26,331 nt of DNA from a virus. The notes under the pieces were generated by a model. That model saw only the letters and a list, made by a program, of their open reading frames with translations, did no database searches and was not told where the DNA came from. A program made the position numbers and the translations under genes. Each line of letters opens with the position of its first letter. The first letter of the stretch is position 1. Shown here one piece after another: positions 2,919 through 12,728 of the stretch. Location of the stretch: the IMG/VR virus record IMGVR_UViG_3300046311_000336, positions 1 to 26,331 of that record, one strand, 5' to 3'.

Positions 2919-3235
2919 TGGGCGAGTATGTTTCCAAATACAGCGGACGTCTTGCCGTCTTTTTGGTGCGCGGCAAAGGGTATGTGGTGATCGACGAGCA
3001 GGCCAATAGCCTGACCGATCCCACCCCGTTTCGGCTGATTGCAGAGGGCTTGCGCGCCAAGTTGCAGCGCGAGGCGGACCTTAAGGTGGCCGCGAAACTT
3101 AAGCAGATCAAACGACCCTGCTTGTGCTGCTCAAAGGTCTTTGCATCCGAGGGCATTCATAACCGCCTGTGCAGCAGCTGCCAAGCCGATCCCGCCCAGT
3201 TGCGGATCCGCGACAACCTGCGCCGGAGGGGATGA
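2918..3235 (+). CDS. Hypothetical early protein with C-terminal zinc-ribbon-like motif
   Basis: 105 aa. ATG 2918 is preferred over GTG 2915 because AGGAGG at 2905-2910 is 7 nt upstream. The N-terminal half is unrecognised. The C-terminal half has CLCC then, after ~17 residues, CSSC (PCLCCSKVFASEGIHNRLCS), a pattern typical of a small zinc-binding knuckle followed by a basic tail (RIRDNLRRRG). This suggests nucleic-acid or protein binding. Related short zinc-finger proteins are frequent in alphaproteobacterial phage early regions. Confidence 0.65.
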   Translation: MGEYVSKYSGRLAVFLVRGKGYVVIDEQANSLTDPTPFRLIAEGLRAKLQREADLKVAAKLKQIKRPCLCCSKVFASEGIHNRLCSSCQADPAQLRIRDNLRRRG

Positions 3236-3236
3236 C

Positions 3237-3467
3237 ATGCGCGCAGCTGCCCTGACATCGCCACGCCTGCAACGGGTCGCAAAGCTGCTGTCTGACGGCA
3301 GGCCGCACAGCACGTTGATGATTGTCCGCAAGGCCCGTGTGATGGCGGTCAGCGCCTGCATTTCCGAACTGCGCCAGCATGGGGCCGAGATCATCTGCAC
3401 CCAGCAATACGAGAATGAGACCCGCATCTTTAATTACACCATGACAAAGGCCCCGATTGCAAAATGA
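3237..3467 (+). CDS. Small winged-helix-like protein
   Basis: 76 aa. The start at 3237 follows GGAGGGG (3226-3232); upstream in-frame starts lie inside the previous gene. The sequence reads as a winged helix: residues ~10-35 (RVAKLLSDGRPHSTLMIV), a recognition-helix-like AVSACISELRQHGAEI, then a wing CTQQYENETRIFNYTM. This matches phage helix-turn-helix proteins where a short-sequence 'ISELRxxGAEI' is followed by a beta hairpin. Probably DNA-binding; target unknown. Confidence 0.65.
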   Translation: MRAAALTSPRLQRVAKLLSDGRPHSTLMIVRKARVMAVSACISELRQHGAEIICTQQYENETRIFNYTMTKAPIAK

Positions 3468-3673: not shown

Positions 3674-4542
3674 TGCCTGAACTGCTTTCCACGATCACAT
3701 CGTTATCCTTGAGCGACATCAGCATTCCAACTGATCGGCTGCGCCCGGTTTCAGAGGCCGGAGTTCAGGCGCTTTTGCACGTCATTGCTGGGTTTGGGTT
3801 TACGACGCCTGTGGTCATTCGGCGCAAGAGGTCCGGCTTTGTGCTGATCGATGGCGCGCACCGCGTTGAGGCGATGAAGCGCAGCGGCATGAGCGAAATT
3901 CCGGTCAGGGTTTACACCTGCACCGACGACGAAGCCCGCGCCATGGAGGCGGGCCAAAACATCGCTGGGGCCGATCTAAGCCCGCTAGATGACGCGCTAT
4001 TTCTGGCCGCGTACAGTGCTGCCTATGAAGAATTGCACCCTGAGACACGCGGCGGAGTGGCGGGAGGTCTTGCCCGACAAGGTTTAGCAACGGAACTTAG
4101 TTCCTTTGCTGATGTGATGGCCGAGAAGCGATCGATCACCACTCGGCAGGTCCGCAAGATCGTCGCGGCGGGCCGTTTGATCAGCCGCAGCGAGGCGGAA
4201 CAGCTGCGCGCGGCCAAGCGCAAGGTGACCCTGAAAGACATCGAAGAGATTGGCAAGATCGGCGAGCCCGAAGAGCGCGCCATGGTTGTGCTGCGTCTGT
4301 CTGTTGGCAACGCCAAGTCTGCCGCCGAGGCGCGACGCAGTTTGCGGGCCGAAAATGGCGATCCGAAAATCACCCTTAAAGACCCCATTGAAGAGGCGTT
4401 TAAGGCCCTGTCCACGATCTGGGCGCGGGCGCACAAATCAGCCAAGCGGCGGTTTGTCGAAGAGCGGGCGGTTGAGCTGGCCGCATTCCTGGACGAGATG
4501 GATTTTGCGGCCGAGTTGGAAGCTGACGAGGTGTCGTTCTGA
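3673..4542 (+). CDS. ParB/Srx-fold nuclease-like protein
   Basis: 289 aa; a GTG three bases upstream (3670) is the alternative start. Residues ~15-100 have the ParB N-terminal layout: ISIPTDRLRPVSEAGVQALL, then TTPVVIRRK, then the signature VLIDGAHRVEAMKRSG and IPVRVY. The C-terminal half is basic/helical with TRQVRKIVAAGRLI, which could be a helix-turn-helix. In Mu-like phages of Rhodobacter a ParB-domain gene sits directly before transposase A, as here (1-nt overlap with A). Known ParB folds bind CTP and centromere-like sites; what this one does in transposition, replication or partition is not known to me. Confidence 0.85.
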   Translation: MPELLSTITSLSLSDISIPTDRLRPVSEAGVQALLHVIAGFGFTTPVVIRRKRSGFVLIDGAHRVEAMKRSGMSEIPVRVYTCTDDEARAMEAGQNIAGADLSPLDDALFLAAYSAAYEELHPETRGGVAGGLARQGLATELSSFADVMAEKRSITTRQVRKIVAAGRLISRSEAEQLRAAKRKVTLKDIEEIGKIGEPEERAMVVLRLSVGNAKSAAEARRSLRAENGDPKITLKDPIEEAFKALSTIWARAHKSAKRRFVEERAVELAAFLDEMDFAAELEADEVSF

Positions 4543-6695
4543 TGACCCGCCCGATTGCGCCAACCCAAGAATGGTGGACAGCCGATGAAATCGCGGCTGC
4601 AGCGCTGCCGGATTTCCCCGCATCAAAGCGTGGTGTGAATCTGCTGATTGATCGTGCTGGTTGGCGCGAGACAGGTGCCATTGCCGCCCGTCGCCGCGCG
4701 GGCAAGGGTGGCGGATGGGAGTATAACTGGCAGTTGTTCCCCGACCGAGCCAAGCGCCGTTTGCTGCAGGCCGCACCGCAGGCCGCTGGCGTGGCAGAGG
4801 CCCCCGCCAGACAGTCGCGCGAAGAGGCTTGGGTCTGGTTTGAAGCCTTGCCGCAGTCGGTCAAGGACAAGGCCGCAGAGCGGTTGAAAATTATCCAGCA
4901 GGTTGAAGCGCTTGAGGCGCAACAAGGTCGCGGGCGGCATCTGGCCACCGTCGATGTGGCTATGATCACAGGCACCGGCACGCGGACAATCTGGACATGG
5001 TTTCAGATGATCGACGGGGTTCGGGTGGATGACCGTCTGGCCTATCTGGCCCCGCGCAACCGCGCCGCTGCGGCATGGGTGCGGTCAAAGGATTTCAGCC
5101 CAGAGTTTTTTGAGGTTTTGAAGGCGGATTTCTTGCGGTTGGGCAAGCCACCTTTTGCAGATTGCTACCGTCGTTCGCTGCGGATCGCCAAAGCCAAAGT
5201 CTATGATGTGCTGCCAGAGCGGACCATGCGCCGCATCATGGATCGTCGGGTGTCAAAGCTGACGCAAGTGCTGGCGCGTGAAGGGGTCGACGCCCTGAAG
5301 CGGCTTTATCCGCCGCAGGTGCGCGACAAGACGGCGCTGGCCCCGATGGAGGCTGTGAACGCCGACTTCCACAAGTTTGACGTGTTTGTCAGCTGGCCCG
5401 CGCCCAAGGGCGAAAAGCCAGTGATTGGCCGGGCGCAGATGGTGGCGTTTCAGGACATCTTTTCGGGCCGGATTCTGGCGTGGCGGTTGGACGTCAATCC
5501 GAATGCGACCGCGGTGCAGTTGTGCGCGGGCGACATGATCGAAAACTGGGGCATCCCAGAGCATATTTTGCTGGATAACGGGCGCGAATTTGCCGCCAAA
5601 TCCATCACGGGTGGGGCAACCACCCGGTACCGGTTCAAGGTCAAGGAAGACGACATTCCGGGCCTGTTCACAGCCCTTGGTTGCACCATCCATTGGGCCA
5701 CGCCTTATCACGGACAGGCCAAGCCGATTGAGCGGGCTTTCCGGGATATGTGCAAATCCATCGCCCTCGACCCGCGTTTTGCCGGGGCATACACGGGCAA
5801 CACACCACTGGCCAAGCCCGAGGATTACGGCAGTCGTGCGATCCCGATCGACGAATTTGAGCGGGTGCTGGCCGAAGGCATCGAAGAGCACAACACCCGC
5901 GTCGGACGCAGGTCCGAAGTGGCATGGGGCCGCAGTTTTGCCCAGGTGTTTGACGAGGCGTATGCCACGGCCCCGATCCGCAAGGCCACTGCCGCACAGC
6001 GCCGACTTTGGTTGCTGGGGGCCGAGGGTGTGCGCGCCGAAAAGACTGGTGCCATCTGGTACCAGCGCAACGAGTTTTACGCAGACTGGCTGCACGATCA
6101 TGCGGGCGAGCGCCTGATCATCCGCTTTGACCTGGCGGCGTTTCACGATGGTTTGCACGTCTATTCATCCGACAACGCCTACCTTGGCTTTGCGCCTTGC
6201 CGTCAAGCTGTCGGGTTCTTTGACAGCGACGAGGCCAAGACCCTGCAGCGCCTGCGCAAGTCATGGATGAACGCCGAAAAGGCCGCTTTGGCCGCACACC
6301 GCACCCTGACCGCTGCCGAAGTGGGCCGCATGTTGGACGAAGCCGCACCCGAAGTGTCGGTGCCGGTGGAATCGAAGATCATCAAGGGCGCATTTGGCAA
6401 AGGCAACGGGTTGCCTAAGCGGCCACAGACCGCGCCGTCCATTTCCGTTGCGGACGTTCAGGTCGCACAGGCGGCCCTAATCACAGATTTGGCGGCACGG
6501 CGATTGGCTGTTGCCCCAGAAGAGGAAACCGCGCGGCAAAGGTTCAAGCGCATGCTTGAACTGGAGCGCCGGATCGAGGCGGGAGAGCCCGTCACGCAAG
6601 AACAGCGCACCGCGCTGCAAGGCTACCAGACCAGCCCCGAATACATCGCCGAGCGGTCGATGTGGAGCCAGTTTGGCGAGGCGTATTTTGGATAA
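4542..6695 (+). CDS. Mu-type DDE transposase A
   Basis: 717 aa; a transposase of the MuA family that catalyses strand transfer at phage ends. Residues ~5-75 form the Mu-type winged-helix end/enhancer-binding domain (EWWTADEIAAAALPDFP, then GWEYNWQLFPDRA). The RNase-H-like catalytic core spans ~265-410: Asp275 in MEAVNADFHKFDV, Asp345 in ILLDNGREF and Glu397 in GQAKPIERAFRD. Spacing (70 and 52 residues) is close to MuA D269/D336/E392. A beta-barrel Mu C-terminal domain follows (~500-580, GAIWYQRNEFYADWL), then a charged helical tail likely contacting the B ATPase. All catalytic residues are present, so the element looks active. It overlaps the ParB-like gene by one base. Confidence 0.96.
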   Translation: MTRPIAPTQEWWTADEIAAAALPDFPASKRGVNLLIDRAGWRETGAIAARRRAGKGGGWEYNWQLFPDRAKRRLLQAAPQAAGVAEAPARQSREEAWVWFEALPQSVKDKAAERLKIIQQVEALEAQQGRGRHLATVDVAMITGTGTRTIWTWFQMIDGVRVDDRLAYLAPRNRAAAAWVRSKDFSPEFFEVLKADFLRLGKPPFADCYRRSLRIAKAKVYDVLPERTMRRIMDRRVSKLTQVLAREGVDALKRLYPPQVRDKTALAPMEAVNADFHKFDVFVSWPAPKGEKPVIGRAQMVAFQDIFSGRILAWRLDVNPNATAVQLCAGDMIENWGIPEHILLDNGREFAAKSITGGATTRYRFKVKEDDIPGLFTALGCTIHWATPYHGQAKPIERAFRDMCKSIALDPRFAGAYTGNTPLAKPEDYGSRAIPIDEFERVLAEGIEEHNTRVGRRSEVAWGRSFAQVFDEAYATAPIRKATAAQRRLWLLGAEGVRAEKTGAIWYQRNEFYADWLHDHAGERLIIRFDLAAFHDGLHVYSSDNAYLGFAPCRQAVGFFDSDEAKTLQRLRKSWMNAEKAALAAHRTLTAAEVGRMLDEAAPEVSVPVESKIIKGAFGKGNGLPKRPQTAPSISVADVQVAQAALITDLAARRLAVAPEEETARQRFKRMLELERRIEAGEPVTQEQRTALQGYQTSPEYIAERSMWSQFGEAYFG

Positions 6696-10212: not shown

Positions 10213-10464
10213 ATGACGCCGGTTGCTTGGGTCCGCACCCCCCTGTTCAGCGTTCACCGCGCGCCCAAGGGCACTGCGTTGGGAATTGCGGATGGCAATA
10301 TCAACAAAGCGCCTTTGACCGTCACGCTGACCGAAGGCGAGATCCACATCGGGTGGGCCGACAGAACCGGACCCGCCTTTGCGATTGACCTGAACCAGCT
10401 GGTCAAAGCCGCCGTCACTGAAATGGAAATATTGCTGGGGCAAGGAAAGGCAGGATCCAAATGA
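10213..10464 (+). CDS. Hypothetical protein upstream of gemA-like gene
   Basis: 83 aa, not recognised. It starts after AAAGGGAG, and its stop overlaps the GemA-like start. Beta-rich appearance (LFSVHRAPKGTALGIADGNI, TVTLTEGEIHIGW), then one helix. No known motif. Confidence 0.55.
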   Translation: MTPVAWVRTPLFSVHRAPKGTALGIADGNINKAPLTVTLTEGEIHIGWADRTGPAFAIDLNQLVKAAVTEMEILLGQGKAGSK

Positions 10465-10901
10465 CCGCAGTTTTGGTCAAGACAATTCACGTGGCCTGCC
10501 GCGATCTGGGGTTAGACAATGACACCCGCCGCGCGCTGCAACTGCAAGTGACCGGCAAGGCAAGCCTGACCGCAATGACGGACGCTGAACAGCTGCGCGT
10601 TCTGGACGCGCTAAAGGCCAAAGGGTTTTCCACCACCCGCAGCGGCAAGTCAAAAGGATATCGCAAGGCCGCAGGGCGCGGTGACGTGCGGTTTTGCCAT
10701 GTTCTTTGGGGCAAACTTGCCCAAGCGGGAATTGTCACCTCGCCCGGCGCGAAAGGGTTGAACAGCTTTATGCGCGTTCGGTTTGAGGCCGCTTGGGGCG
10801 CTGCACCGATCGACATCGATGCGATGACCGACGCCAAGCAAATTGCCACAGTCCTTGAGGCATTAAAGGCGATGTGCGCCCGCGTGGGGATCACCCTATG
10901 A
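10461..10901 (+). CDS. gemA: GemA-like regulatory protein (DUF1018)
   Basis: 146 aa; matches the GemA/DUF1018 family of Mu gp16. The signature N-terminus is VKTIHVACRDLGLDNDTRRA, followed by VTGKASLTAMTDAEQLRVLD and LKAKGF. A second segment WGKLAQAGIVTSPGAKGLNS and a C-terminal LKAMCARVGI follow. In Mu, GemA is reported to affect host gene expression and DNA gyrase-related functions. It lies in the semi-early region as expected. Overlaps both neighbours by 4 nt. Confidence 0.85.
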   Translation: MTAVLVKTIHVACRDLGLDNDTRRALQLQVTGKASLTAMTDAEQLRVLDALKAKGFSTTRSGKSKGYRKAAGRGDVRFCHVLWGKLAQAGIVTSPGAKGLNSFMRVRFEAAWGAAPIDIDAMTDAKQIATVLEALKAMCARVGITL

Positions 10902-11161
10902 AACAGCTGCCAATCCGCATTTCCGACCATGCCGTGCTGCGATACCTTGAACGCGTCGGCGGATTTGAGATTGAGGCGCTGCGCAAGCAGCTGTGTGACC
11001 GGATCGCGCCCGTTGCCGTCGAAGGGATGGAATCTGTCCAAATCGACGGCCACCGCTTTTTGGTCCAACAGGACCCCCGAGGCATTGTCGTCGTCACCAT
11101 TCTTGATGGCAACCGCGTCTCGCGGGAGTTGCCGGGCCGCCCAAAGCGGGTGGGGCCATGA
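10898..11161 (+). CDS. Hypothetical protein downstream of gemA
   Basis: 87 aa; start overlaps the gemA-like stop. RISDHAVLRYLERVGGFEIE is a motif I recall from short proteins of Rhodobacterales phages, and the fold (helix then beta strands, RFLVQQDPRGIVVVTIL) loosely resembles small RelE/DUF4258-like toxins. No toxin function can be claimed. It is the last gene before the ORF6N leader. Confidence 0.55.
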   Translation: MKQLPIRISDHAVLRYLERVGGFEIEALRKQLCDRIAPVAVEGMESVQIDGHRFLVQQDPRGIVVVTILDGNRVSRELPGRPKRVGP

Positions 11162-11178
11162 TGAGGATTTTCCACCAT

Positions 11179-11207
11179 TTGACAAATCAGGCGAACCGCA
11201 GCATGTT
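11179..11207 (+). promoter_or_regulatory. Candidate promoter for the c4-like RNA and ORF6N gene
   Basis: TTGACA (11179-11184), 17-nt spacer, CATGTT (11202-11207). The -35 is perfect and the -10 is weak (3/6). It would start transcription near 11214, upstream of the structured leader. Confidence 0.5.
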
Positions 11208-11300
11208 GGTGTCGTTCGGACGTGCCTTAAGAAGCGCACCGAGCGAGATTACTGCAGGCGGTTACGCCCCGACACAGCGTCTCATCAGAGATCAGCTTCA

Positions 11301-11370
11301 TCCGGGTGCCATGTGCAATGTCCAAGGCGAAAGCCTAAAGGCGCATGGGGATTGTCCTGCGGCAGTCTTC
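11301..11370 (+). ncRNA. c4-like antisense RNA in the leader of the ORF6N gene
   Basis: The leader folds as an outer stem CCATGTGC/GCGCATGG (11309-11316 with 11341-11348) around an inner GAAA-tetraloop hairpin AGGC-GAAA-GCCT (11325-11336). Flanking single-stranded parts match the downstream mRNA. TCCGGGTG (11301-11308) is the exact complement of CACCCGGA (11375-11382). TCCTGCGG (11355-11362) is the exact complement of CCGCAGGA (11402-11409), which covers the Shine-Dalgarno of the next gene. This a/b to a'/b' layout, with b' at the ribosome site of an antirepressor-type gene, is that of c4 RNA in phages P1 and P7. Boundaries are approximate; the Rfam model was not run. Confidence 0.75.
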
Positions 11371-11374
11371 TTAA

Positions 11375-11410
11375 CACCCGGAGCCGTTTCGGCTTCCGTA
11401 ACCGCAGGAG
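11375..11410 (+). promoter_or_regulatory. c4 target sites a' and b' with intervening hairpin
   Basis: a' (11375-11382) and b' (11402-11409) flank a hairpin, GGAGCCG with CGGCTTCC (one bulged T, TTT loop), at 11380-11397. b' contains the AGGAG ribosome binding site of the ORF6N gene. Pairing with the c4-like RNA would hide it. Confidence 0.65.
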
Positions 11411-11416
11411 ATGACA

Positions 11417-12082
11417 ATGGCGCTTCCCACCATAGCAGGGGTTCAGGCCCGTATCTGCAATCTAACAAACAGACCACCGATCATGCTGGCCGATGCCGTG
11501 GCCGAAGTGTTTGGGACCACGGCCAAACGACTGATGGAACAAGTCCGTCGCAATATGGACCTTTTCCCAAGCGACTTCATGATCGAATTGACAGAAGCCG
11601 AATTCAAAGAGAAGTCGCCGCAAATTGCGGCAACTTCTCAGGGGAAGCGGACCGATCTGACACACTACGGCTTTACGGAAGCCGGGGCGCTGATGGTGCT
11701 AAACGTGCTTCGAACTGCGGAAGCGCGGTCAGCGGCGCCAATTGTGGTGCGGGCCTTTCTGGCGATGCGAGAGCAACGGTCAGATGCGCTGCGTCACGAA
11801 CGGTTCGTCGACAAGTATTCCTATGTTGGTCGGTCAGCCTTGCGGCAACGGATCATGGCGGCGGCGGATGCCGGAGCCAGCTACAACGACCTGTGGGGGC
11901 GTTGGGGCTATTCGCACCGGGTGCTGACGGGCGAGATCGAGGCGATGCGGGTGCGCGGCTATATCGGCCCAATGGTTCTGACGCCACCACTGTACATCTT
12001 GCGCGAGATCGACGCCAAAAAGGCCCACACGGCGTTGCACGTCGAGGACACGCAGCAATTGCGCCTTGGCTTGGAGGGTTAA
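11417..12082 (+). CDS. ORF6N-domain protein, probable antirepressor
   Basis: 221 aa. ATG 11417 is chosen because AGGAG ends at 11410, giving 6-nt spacing; ATG 11411 abuts it. Residues ~10-100 fit ORF6N: RPPIMLADAVAEVFGTTAKR, then QVRRNMDLFPSDFMIELTEAE and TDLTHYGFTEAGALMV. The C-terminal half (GRSALRQRIMAAADAGASYN onward) looks like a helical, possibly HTH-bearing, effector domain. ORF6N/KilA-N/Ant-type domains are common in phage antirepressors. The upstream c4-like RNA strengthens that reading, since P1 c4 controls ant. A likely job is inactivation of the S24 repressor or modulation of another regulator; this is inference. Confidence 0.8.
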   Translation: MALPTIAGVQARICNLTNRPPIMLADAVAEVFGTTAKRLMEQVRRNMDLFPSDFMIELTEAEFKEKSPQIAATSQGKRTDLTHYGFTEAGALMVLNVLRTAEARSAAPIVVRAFLAMREQRSDALRHERFVDKYSYVGRSALRQRIMAAADAGASYNDLWGRWGYSHRVLTGEIEAMRVRGYIGPMVLTPPLYILREIDAKKAHTALHVEDTQQLRLGLEG

Positions 12083-12086
12083 GCCA

Positions 12087-12320
12087 ATGTGTAACCATTG
12101 CACCAATCTCGACCCCCGCGACGAAATCGTCTACGCCGCCATTGCACTTGACGGCATTCGGCACCTTGTGTCGGATGTTGGGGTGGACAAGCCGCAATTC
12201 GACCTTACCGGGCCGCGCGAATTGGCCGAACTTTTGGACATGGTCCACAAGCGGATCAGCGGCGCTGCGGACAAGCTGCAAGGCTATGTTCCGCGCGATT
12301 GGACGCCACCGGTGGCTTAA
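12087..12320 (+). CDS. Hypothetical protein
   Basis: 77 aa, not recognised. ATG 12087 after GGAGGG at 12073-12078. It begins MCNHCTNLDP with a CxxC pair, possibly metal-binding, then a helical body (DEIVYAAIALDGIRHLVSDV, LAELLDMVHKRISGAADKLQ). It is the last gene before the late activator. Confidence 0.6.
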   Translation: MCNHCTNLDPRDEIVYAAIALDGIRHLVSDVGVDKPQFDLTGPRELAELLDMVHKRISGAADKLQGYVPRDWTPPVA

Positions 12321-12327
12321 CTCTTCT

Positions 12328-12350
12328 GCGGCCTTCCAATGGGGGGCCGC
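12328..12350 (+). promoter_or_regulatory. Hairpin covering the ribosome binding site of the Mor-like gene
   Basis: GCGGCCTTCC (12328-12337) can pair along its full length with GGGGGGCCGC (12341-12350), including two T-G pairs, around a 3-nt loop. The right arm is the only purine-rich ribosome site and abuts ATG 12351; an alternative ATG (12339) lies at the loop. This suggests translational control of the activator. Confidence 0.55.
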
Positions 12351-12728
12351 ATGAACTATCCGCGCCCGCCCGCCCATATCATGCCCTATATCGATGCCCT
12401 TGGGGTTGAGACCGCCGTGCGGTTCTTTTTGCATTTTGGCGGTGCGGAACTTTACATCCCGCGCGCCCCAAAAGGCAAAAGTGAGCTGGTGGAAGAATTG
12501 GGGATGGAGGCAGCCCTCGCGCTGTCTGCGCTGGCAGAACGCATGGTGTTGCCACCCCGCATTCCAACCGCCAAACCGTGGCTTGCGCGCTATATGAAGG
12601 TCGTCGAGGGTTATTCAGTGGCCAAGATATCGCGTAAGCTGCACAGTTCTGACGTAGCCGTGCGCCGCTGGATTGCCGGTATGGGCGATCACCGCGACGA
12701 AGCGAGCAACCAGCTGAGCCTGTTTTAG
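12351..12728 (+). CDS. Mor/C-like late transcription activator
   Basis: 125 aa from ATG 12351 (129 aa from ATG 12339). The layout is that of the Mor family: a dimerisation half YIDALGVETAVRFFLHFGGA then LYIPRAPKGKSELVEELG, followed by a helical stretch and a C-terminal HTH (VVEGYSVAKISRKLHSSDVA, VRRWI). In Mu, Mor and C activate middle and late promoters lacking a good -35. The same role fits here: two identical-geometry promoters with a shared box lie at 12760-12807 and 21642-21689. The last five residues, QLSLF, match the consensus sliding-clamp-binding motif. The family call is by pattern only, but position (just before the lysis operon) agrees. Confidence 0.8.
   Translation: MNYPRPPAHIMPYIDALGVETAVRFFLHFGGAELYIPRAPKGKSELVEELGMEAALALSALAERMVLPPRIPTAKPWLARYMKVVEGYSVAKISRKLHSSDVAVRRWIAGMGDHRDEASNQLSLF

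Follow-up and report, generated by a model that had tools for sequence, protein, structure and literature searches.

In a Mu-like phage, a C4-type antisense RNA is probably encoded in the leader of the gene ORF6N, and is proposed to block the ribosome-binding site of that gene in trans. From the sequence evidence, the probability of this reading is put at roughly 0.8. The RNA belongs to a widespread C4-like family, which is apparently uncatalogued and for which the proposed mechanism is one known from phage P1. The fold, its covariation and the matching of each RNA to its own locus uphold the core idea of a first-pass annotation of this DNA, which had placed a C4-like antisense RNA in the ORF6N leader.

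The RNA and its sites in the ORF6N leader

The window, the whole stretch of DNA analysed, is a 26,331-base virus record of a Mu-like phage. This character, noted already in the first-pass annotation, is borne out by a Mu transposase (4542-6692), GemA (10461-10898) and a Mor-type late activator (12339-12725), and the S24-type repressor that had also been noted is present on the opposite strand (440-1135). The ORF6N gene, for which the start at 11417 was preferred over 11411, judging from the Shine-Dalgarno spacing and the relatives, is preceded by a leader of approximately 240 bases, and upstream of this leader a small gene ends at 11161. The ORF6N protein is presumed, from its family, to be an antirepressor acting against the S24 repressor. 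One relative of the protein was found in the genome contigs, three weak ones in phages and none in the viral contigs, and at the nucleotide level nothing was found beyond two near-identical Manatee Spring phages. An open frame of 398 codons (11158-12354), whose start overlaps the end of the gene before it at an ATGA, spans the leader and crosses the ORF6N gene in another frame, perhaps by chance. The features of the leader are the following:

11179..11184, + strand: TTGACA, possible -35 element of a leader promoter, from the sequence
11227..11234, + strand: a1, upstream site complementary to a' over 8 nt, changing together with a' in relatives
11251..11258, + strand: b1, upstream site, of which 11252-11258 pairs with b' (seven pairs, one G-U)
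11301..11382, + strand: C4-like RNA (stem P1, P2, P3 and a'), predicted from model R1, fold and covariation
11301..11308, + strand: 5' strand of the closing stem P1, pairing with 11375-11382
11309..11348, + strand: P2 hairpin, from fold and covariation
11309-11316/11341-11348, + strand: lower stem of P2, 8 bp
11318..11342, + strand: core ATGTCCA-hairpin-AAAGGC, conserved in relatives
11325-11328/11333-11336, + strand: apical stem of P2, with the GAAA loop at 11329-11332
11350..11367, + strand: P3 hairpin (11350-11356/11361-11367), from the fold
11355..11362, + strand: b' specificity segment, in and beside the P3 loop, complement of b2
11367..11374, + strand: a' specificity segment, lying after P3 and before the 3' strand of stem P1, complement of a1
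11375..11382, + strand: 3' strand of the closing stem P1, pairing with 11301-11308
11402..11409, + strand: b2, target over the Shine-Dalgarno sequence of the ORF6N gene, complement of b'
11417..12082, + strand: ORF6N gene, presumed antirepressor (Pfam ORF6N, E 3.7e-17; PHROG anti-repressor families)

The covariance model R1, which has the window as one of its 45 training sequences, matched 11300-11383 with 76.4 bits. The RNA has three stems of the C4 type, in which the closing stem encloses two hairpins, one with a tetraloop and one with b' in its loop, and its ends at 11301 and 11382 are predicted from this fold. The GAAA-tetraloop hairpin with its 8-bp stem had been described correctly in the first-pass annotation. 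The leader 11179-11440 folds better than its shuffles (z -3.36, with 1 of 200 as good); for the 72-nt piece 11295-11366, which is without the 3' strand of stem P1, z was 0.35 and 117 of 200 shuffles were as good.

Two perfectly complementary pairs, 11301-11308 with 11375-11382 and 11355-11362 with 11402-11409, had been reported as segments and target sites, and both are present. The second is retained as a target over the Shine-Dalgarno sequence, formed by 8 nt of b' (UCCUGCGG) and b2 (CCGCAGGA). The first, taken earlier as a/a', was rejected as a target, since by the phage P1 layout and by covariation its strands (UCCGGGUG and CACCCGGA) are those of the RNA's own closing stem, P1. The second specificity segment, a', was overlooked, and its partner a1 lies upstream. 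At the b1 position, the relatives L002 and L003 carry a perfect copy of b2, and neither the window nor its near relatives showed an a2 site (a complement of a' adjoining b2), which other members of the family do have. In letter shuffles of the window alone, the b'/b2 duplex was equalled in 16 of 500 and the a1/b1 duplex in 27 of 500. Nested co-folding of the RNA with the target or the upstream region, a procedure which cannot model a contact between a loop and a site, gave no intermolecular pairs and energies that were plain sums. The window locus by itself gives moderate evidence; only when it is compared with relatives does it stand far beyond chance.

Relatives, covariation and matching to the own leader

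In a Rhodobacter MAG (L002), the stretch of leader that begins at TTGACA and ends at the Shine-Dalgarno sequence closely resembles the one described here; the sequence farther upstream is not similar there, and the relative of the ORF6N protein has 58 % identity in the best segment. Similar leaders are also found in the viral contigs L003-L005 and as a second copy on the same MAG contig. Phage ctOK67 (MW202613) has a diverged relative that shares the core and differs in its stem P1 and b'/b2 sequences, in both of which complementarity is preserved; this RNA precedes an ORF without annotation in the record. Paired b'/b2 changes among the near relatives are CCTGCGG/CCGCAGG, CCTTCGG/CCGAAGG and CCATCGG/CCGATGG. 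The first two belong to the Rhodobacter MAG, in which two leader-antirepressor modules with different recognition sequences stand in tandem approximately 2.3 kb apart (L002 and L012; G001:C111:721-956 and 3028-3261): the copy with CCTGCGG/CCGCAGG has a'/a1 CTGTTCAA/TTGAACAG, and the copy with CCTTCGG/CCGAAGG has CTTGCTAA/TTAGCAAG. One of the two copies has 7-nt matches to the leader of the other, so that their separation is partial as judged by sequence alone. In five genomes, with 7, 9, 3, 3 and 2 copies examined, a' generally matched best with its own upstream leader, copies sharing the same a' cross-matched and some b' matches were weak. The nine copies in the 1.6-Mb genome G494 (L186-L194) and the seven in the 4.8-Mb genome G219 (L179-L185) mostly differ in both a' and b'.

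Members entered the family through a degenerate pattern of the short leader core, which was found in 95 stretches of the viral contigs. Among 99 occurrences in the gathered sequences, 47 had four of four inner pairs and 14 had three of four, and the 38 with fewer than three were left out. L016 was added to the remaining 61 by a slightly looser pattern, L056, L057, L073 and L085 were dropped on visual inspection and L024 and L072 were truncated where their contigs end, giving 56 records and, after removal of near-duplicates, 48 distinct members. L014 was judged by eye to be a false positive. The covariation alignment (A3) comprised 45 of the 48, without L048, L062 and L102, which were odd or near-duplicate.

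RNAalifold predicted a P1(P2)(P3) fold for these 45 sequences, with at least one compensatory change in 19 of 25 pairs. When one apical pair was added to this fold, the share of paired cells was 93.9 %, compared with 73.5 % in shuffled alignments, and the covariation score was 0.515 compared with 0.165; neither value was reached in 500 shuffles, and sliding the partners reduced pairing to 27-44 %. Changes on both sides were borne by stem P1 (97.7 % of cells paired, changes in 7 of 9 pairs), the lower P2 stem (6 of 6 pairs) and P3 (89.2 % of cells paired). Covariation in related phages, the lack of which would by the first-pass annotation have counted against the RNA, is clear. The constancy of the core in this alignment is partly a product of the search pattern. 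The model R1 was then used to find loci in genomes, giving 68 matches, most of which keep the ATGTCCA...AAAGGC core and vary widely in the apical stem. Removal of near-duplicates within this set left a second set of 66, none of which was used to build R1.

The segment comprising b' and a' matched its own locus better than other loci. In the 48 members the mean longest match was 7.60 nt with the own downstream leader (5.52 with other loci) and 8.27 nt with the own upstream leader (5.68 with other loci), values not reached in any of 2000 permutations, and a P2 strand used as control showed no excess (1151 and 356 of 2000 permutations reached its values). Among the 66 non-training loci, matches of at least 7 nt were present upstream for b' in 51 (3.8 % with other loci) and for a' in 45 (6.0 %), and downstream for b' in 23 (3.7 %) and for a' in 22 (2.7 %), again with 0 of 2000 permutations for each type; R1 selects stems, not sites outside the RNA. 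In both sets together, 61 of 114 members had a match of at least 7 nt directly 5' of a start codon, compared with 546 of 12,882 pairs (4.24 %) in the other-locus control. The other 53 had no such match at the downstream ribosome-binding site, and control of the downstream gene is therefore not general to the family.

TTGAC is found 60-190 bases 5' of stem P1 in 44 of the 61 members with a ribosome-binding-site target, compared with 9.5 % of letter-shuffled stretches. In the window, a near-palindrome at 11177-11187 (ATTTGACAAAT), possibly an operator, covers the possible -35 element and is the single match there to ATTTG.CAAAT; it is present in both L002 copies and absent from L003.

Downstream genes were compared with domain families for 43 of the 47 first-set ORFs (L035 had no ORF, and L045, L080, L089 and L102 were left out as doubtful or duplicate). 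At E ≤ 0.01 there were 11 Rha, six Bro-N, five ORF6N and four P22_AR_N, counts which overlap, include members without a ribosome-binding-site target and have the window protein in two of them; the PHROG names were largely anti-repressors. The 23 genome loci with a target had, at E ≤ 0.001, five Bro-N, three Rha and one each of P22_AR_N, AntA and ORF6N, which may overlap, while 35 of 38 ORFs at loci without a target gave one AntA, four HTH_3, three sigma-70 region 4_2 and otherwise varied genes. Antirepressor types are accordingly frequent and not universal. Free-standing members, with the C4-like RNA and upstream a1/b1 and without a target at the downstream ribosome-binding site, number 47 (for example L115, L119, L130, L134, L141, L166, L169, L171 and L186-L198), a class which is set by the cut-off and in which at least one member, L153, followed by an AntA gene, is a probable false negative for the target; another six of the 114, whose match is exactly 6 nt long, were assigned neither to this class nor to that with a target. 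The neighbours of free-standing members are varied and include Cro/C1-type HTH, sigma-70-type and surface proteins.

The first-pass annotation had looked to the Rfam C4 model (RF01695) for confirmation, which was not obtained: the window gave no match, nor did a search relaxed to E ≤ 10 find any, whether on 11100-11460 or across the window, G004-G007 and MW202613, while phage P1 as positive control gave 68.8 bits. Below-threshold Rfam matches at the leader were to unrelated families and were rejected. No Rfam family matched at the RNA in 18 further loci, and 20 more gave two tRNAs only. Conversely, R1 did not find the C4 of phage P1 at E ≤ 10.

Genomes were sampled from the family, class and phylum of the Rhodobacter MAG, the class being presumably Alphaproteobacteria, from the MAG title and general taxonomy. 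R1 (E ≤ 0.001) was found in 11 of 198 genomes of the family, 46 of 385 of the class and 49 of 398 of the phylum, G001 included in each, and Rfam C4 in 61 of the 398 phylum-sample and four of the 385 class-sample genomes; these counts may be low because Infernal's stricter filters were used. Both models matched in G629, G650, G693 and G727 of the phylum sample and G347 of the class sample, and no locus was matched by both where coordinates were listed, a comparison made without the C4 place in G693 and covering one of two places in G727. In G727:C167 an R1 member (436-516) and an Rfam C4 RNA (2062-2149) lie approximately 1.6 kb apart on the same strand. Literature searches gave no paper recognisable as describing the C4-like family, of which an earlier description is possible.

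Proposed action of the RNA and competing explanations

A promoter near 11179 would give a leader transcript, from which an RNA of approximately 82 nt would be released, or within which it would act, pairing in trans with sister transcripts. Pairing of b' would hide the ribosome-binding site and block ORF6N translation, so that a lysogen would make leader RNA and little ORF6N protein. The a'/a1 and b'/b1 pairings may contribute to specificity, or to feedback on the transcript from which the RNA comes. Upon new infection or induction the RNA would be scarce, and ORF6N protein could be made until the RNA had built up. Since paired sites change in concert, a module would be expected to recognise chiefly itself, and self-recognising modules would give an immunity type at the RNA level.

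The strongest competitor, which we nevertheless regard as unlikely, is a structured 5' UTR that controls its own ribosome-binding site without a separate small RNA, either through pairing of the b' loop with b2 on its own transcript or through a possible long-range helix, 11257-11265/11396-11404, which reaches into the ribosome-binding site. The minimum-energy fold predicted for 11213-11440 includes this helix, whose strands, CGGTTAC and GTAACCG, are shared by all 11 listed loci of the CATCCGGGTG subgroup, several of them near-duplicates; being invariant there, however, the helix shows no covariation. Control in cis alone also leaves unexplained the changing a'/a1 and b'/b1 pairs and the free-standing members without a downstream target.

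In the 66 non-training loci, matches lie upstream more often than downstream (51 compared with 23 for b', 45 compared with 22 for a'), free-standing members have only a1/b1, and a crude test found a terminator-like hairpin after the RNA in eight of 47 free-standing members and in one of 61 members with a target. These observations would fit a1/b1 as the main target, for feedback or attenuation, with the match at the ribosome-binding site secondary. Against this stand the 61 of 114 matches directly 5' of a start codon, far above the 4.24 % expected from other loci, and the genes at such start codons, which are often of antirepressor types, and we consider this explanation highly improbable. A chance fold with chance complementarity, with which the unremarkable stability of the 72-nt piece and the shuffles that equalled the single-locus duplexes would agree, has next to no likelihood; provided that the alignments are right, it is contradicted by the covariation and by the matching of relatives to their own loci.

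The family may represent a major unnamed system of RNA immunity, prominent in Alphaproteobacteria, with a fast-changing two-segment code. In addition to antirepressor leaders, it would comprise free-standing modules, present in several copies per genome with mostly different codes, which a host or prophage could turn in trans on incoming phages or host mRNAs. This broader proposal is tentative, and we would give it somewhat worse than even odds. C4 is a classic example of RNA-based phage immunity. The family described here is missed by the C4 model and is present in about one in eight of the sampled class genomes, where Rfam C4 is rare (46 of 385 for the family, four of 385 for C4). Such a family would make RNA control of antirepressors common among temperate phages, and a readable a'/b' code would allow immunity groups to be predicted from sequence and put to direct test.

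Comparison with known systems

The phage P1 record annotates a1 at 48255-48261, b1 at 48269-48276, C4 at 48343-48419, a2 at 48423-48429 and b2 at 48452-48459. The order of elements in the window is the same as for C4 (RF01695) of phages P1 and P7, except that a2 is missing in the window's subgroup. The P1/P7 RNAs likewise have a closing stem around the tetraloop and b'-loop hairpins, a' before the closing 3' strand and an antirepressor operon. The closing stem is shorter here, 8-9 bp compared with 17 bp in the Rfam C4 model, whereas P2 is longer than in C4 and carries the core ATGTCCA...AAAGGC. Furthermore, b2 is carried by icd in phage P1, whereas here, where no icd-like gene intervenes, it is carried directly by the antirepressor-type gene.

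The name of the c4-a1b1 motif we take to mean a1/b1 sites ahead of C4. Such sites are also present here. The motif is listed for gamma-proteobacteria and phages and is given no Rfam number (Weinberg et al. 2010; PMC2864571). The sar RNA of phage P22 is a small RNA which base-pairs with the antirepressor mRNA and represses it; repression of an antirepressor would be common to both systems, and the description consulted gives no two-segment a'/b' architecture for sar (PMC12197685). For C4 itself, a 5' end made by RNase P and an RNA of approximately 77 nt are reported (PMC5320573). The same paper describes C4-like Group 1 sRNAs of Acinetobacter baumannii, which are recognised through the Rfam C4 motif, unlike the family here, and which occur in many copies per genome differing in a', in this respect comparable to the free-standing members of the present family (PMC5320573).
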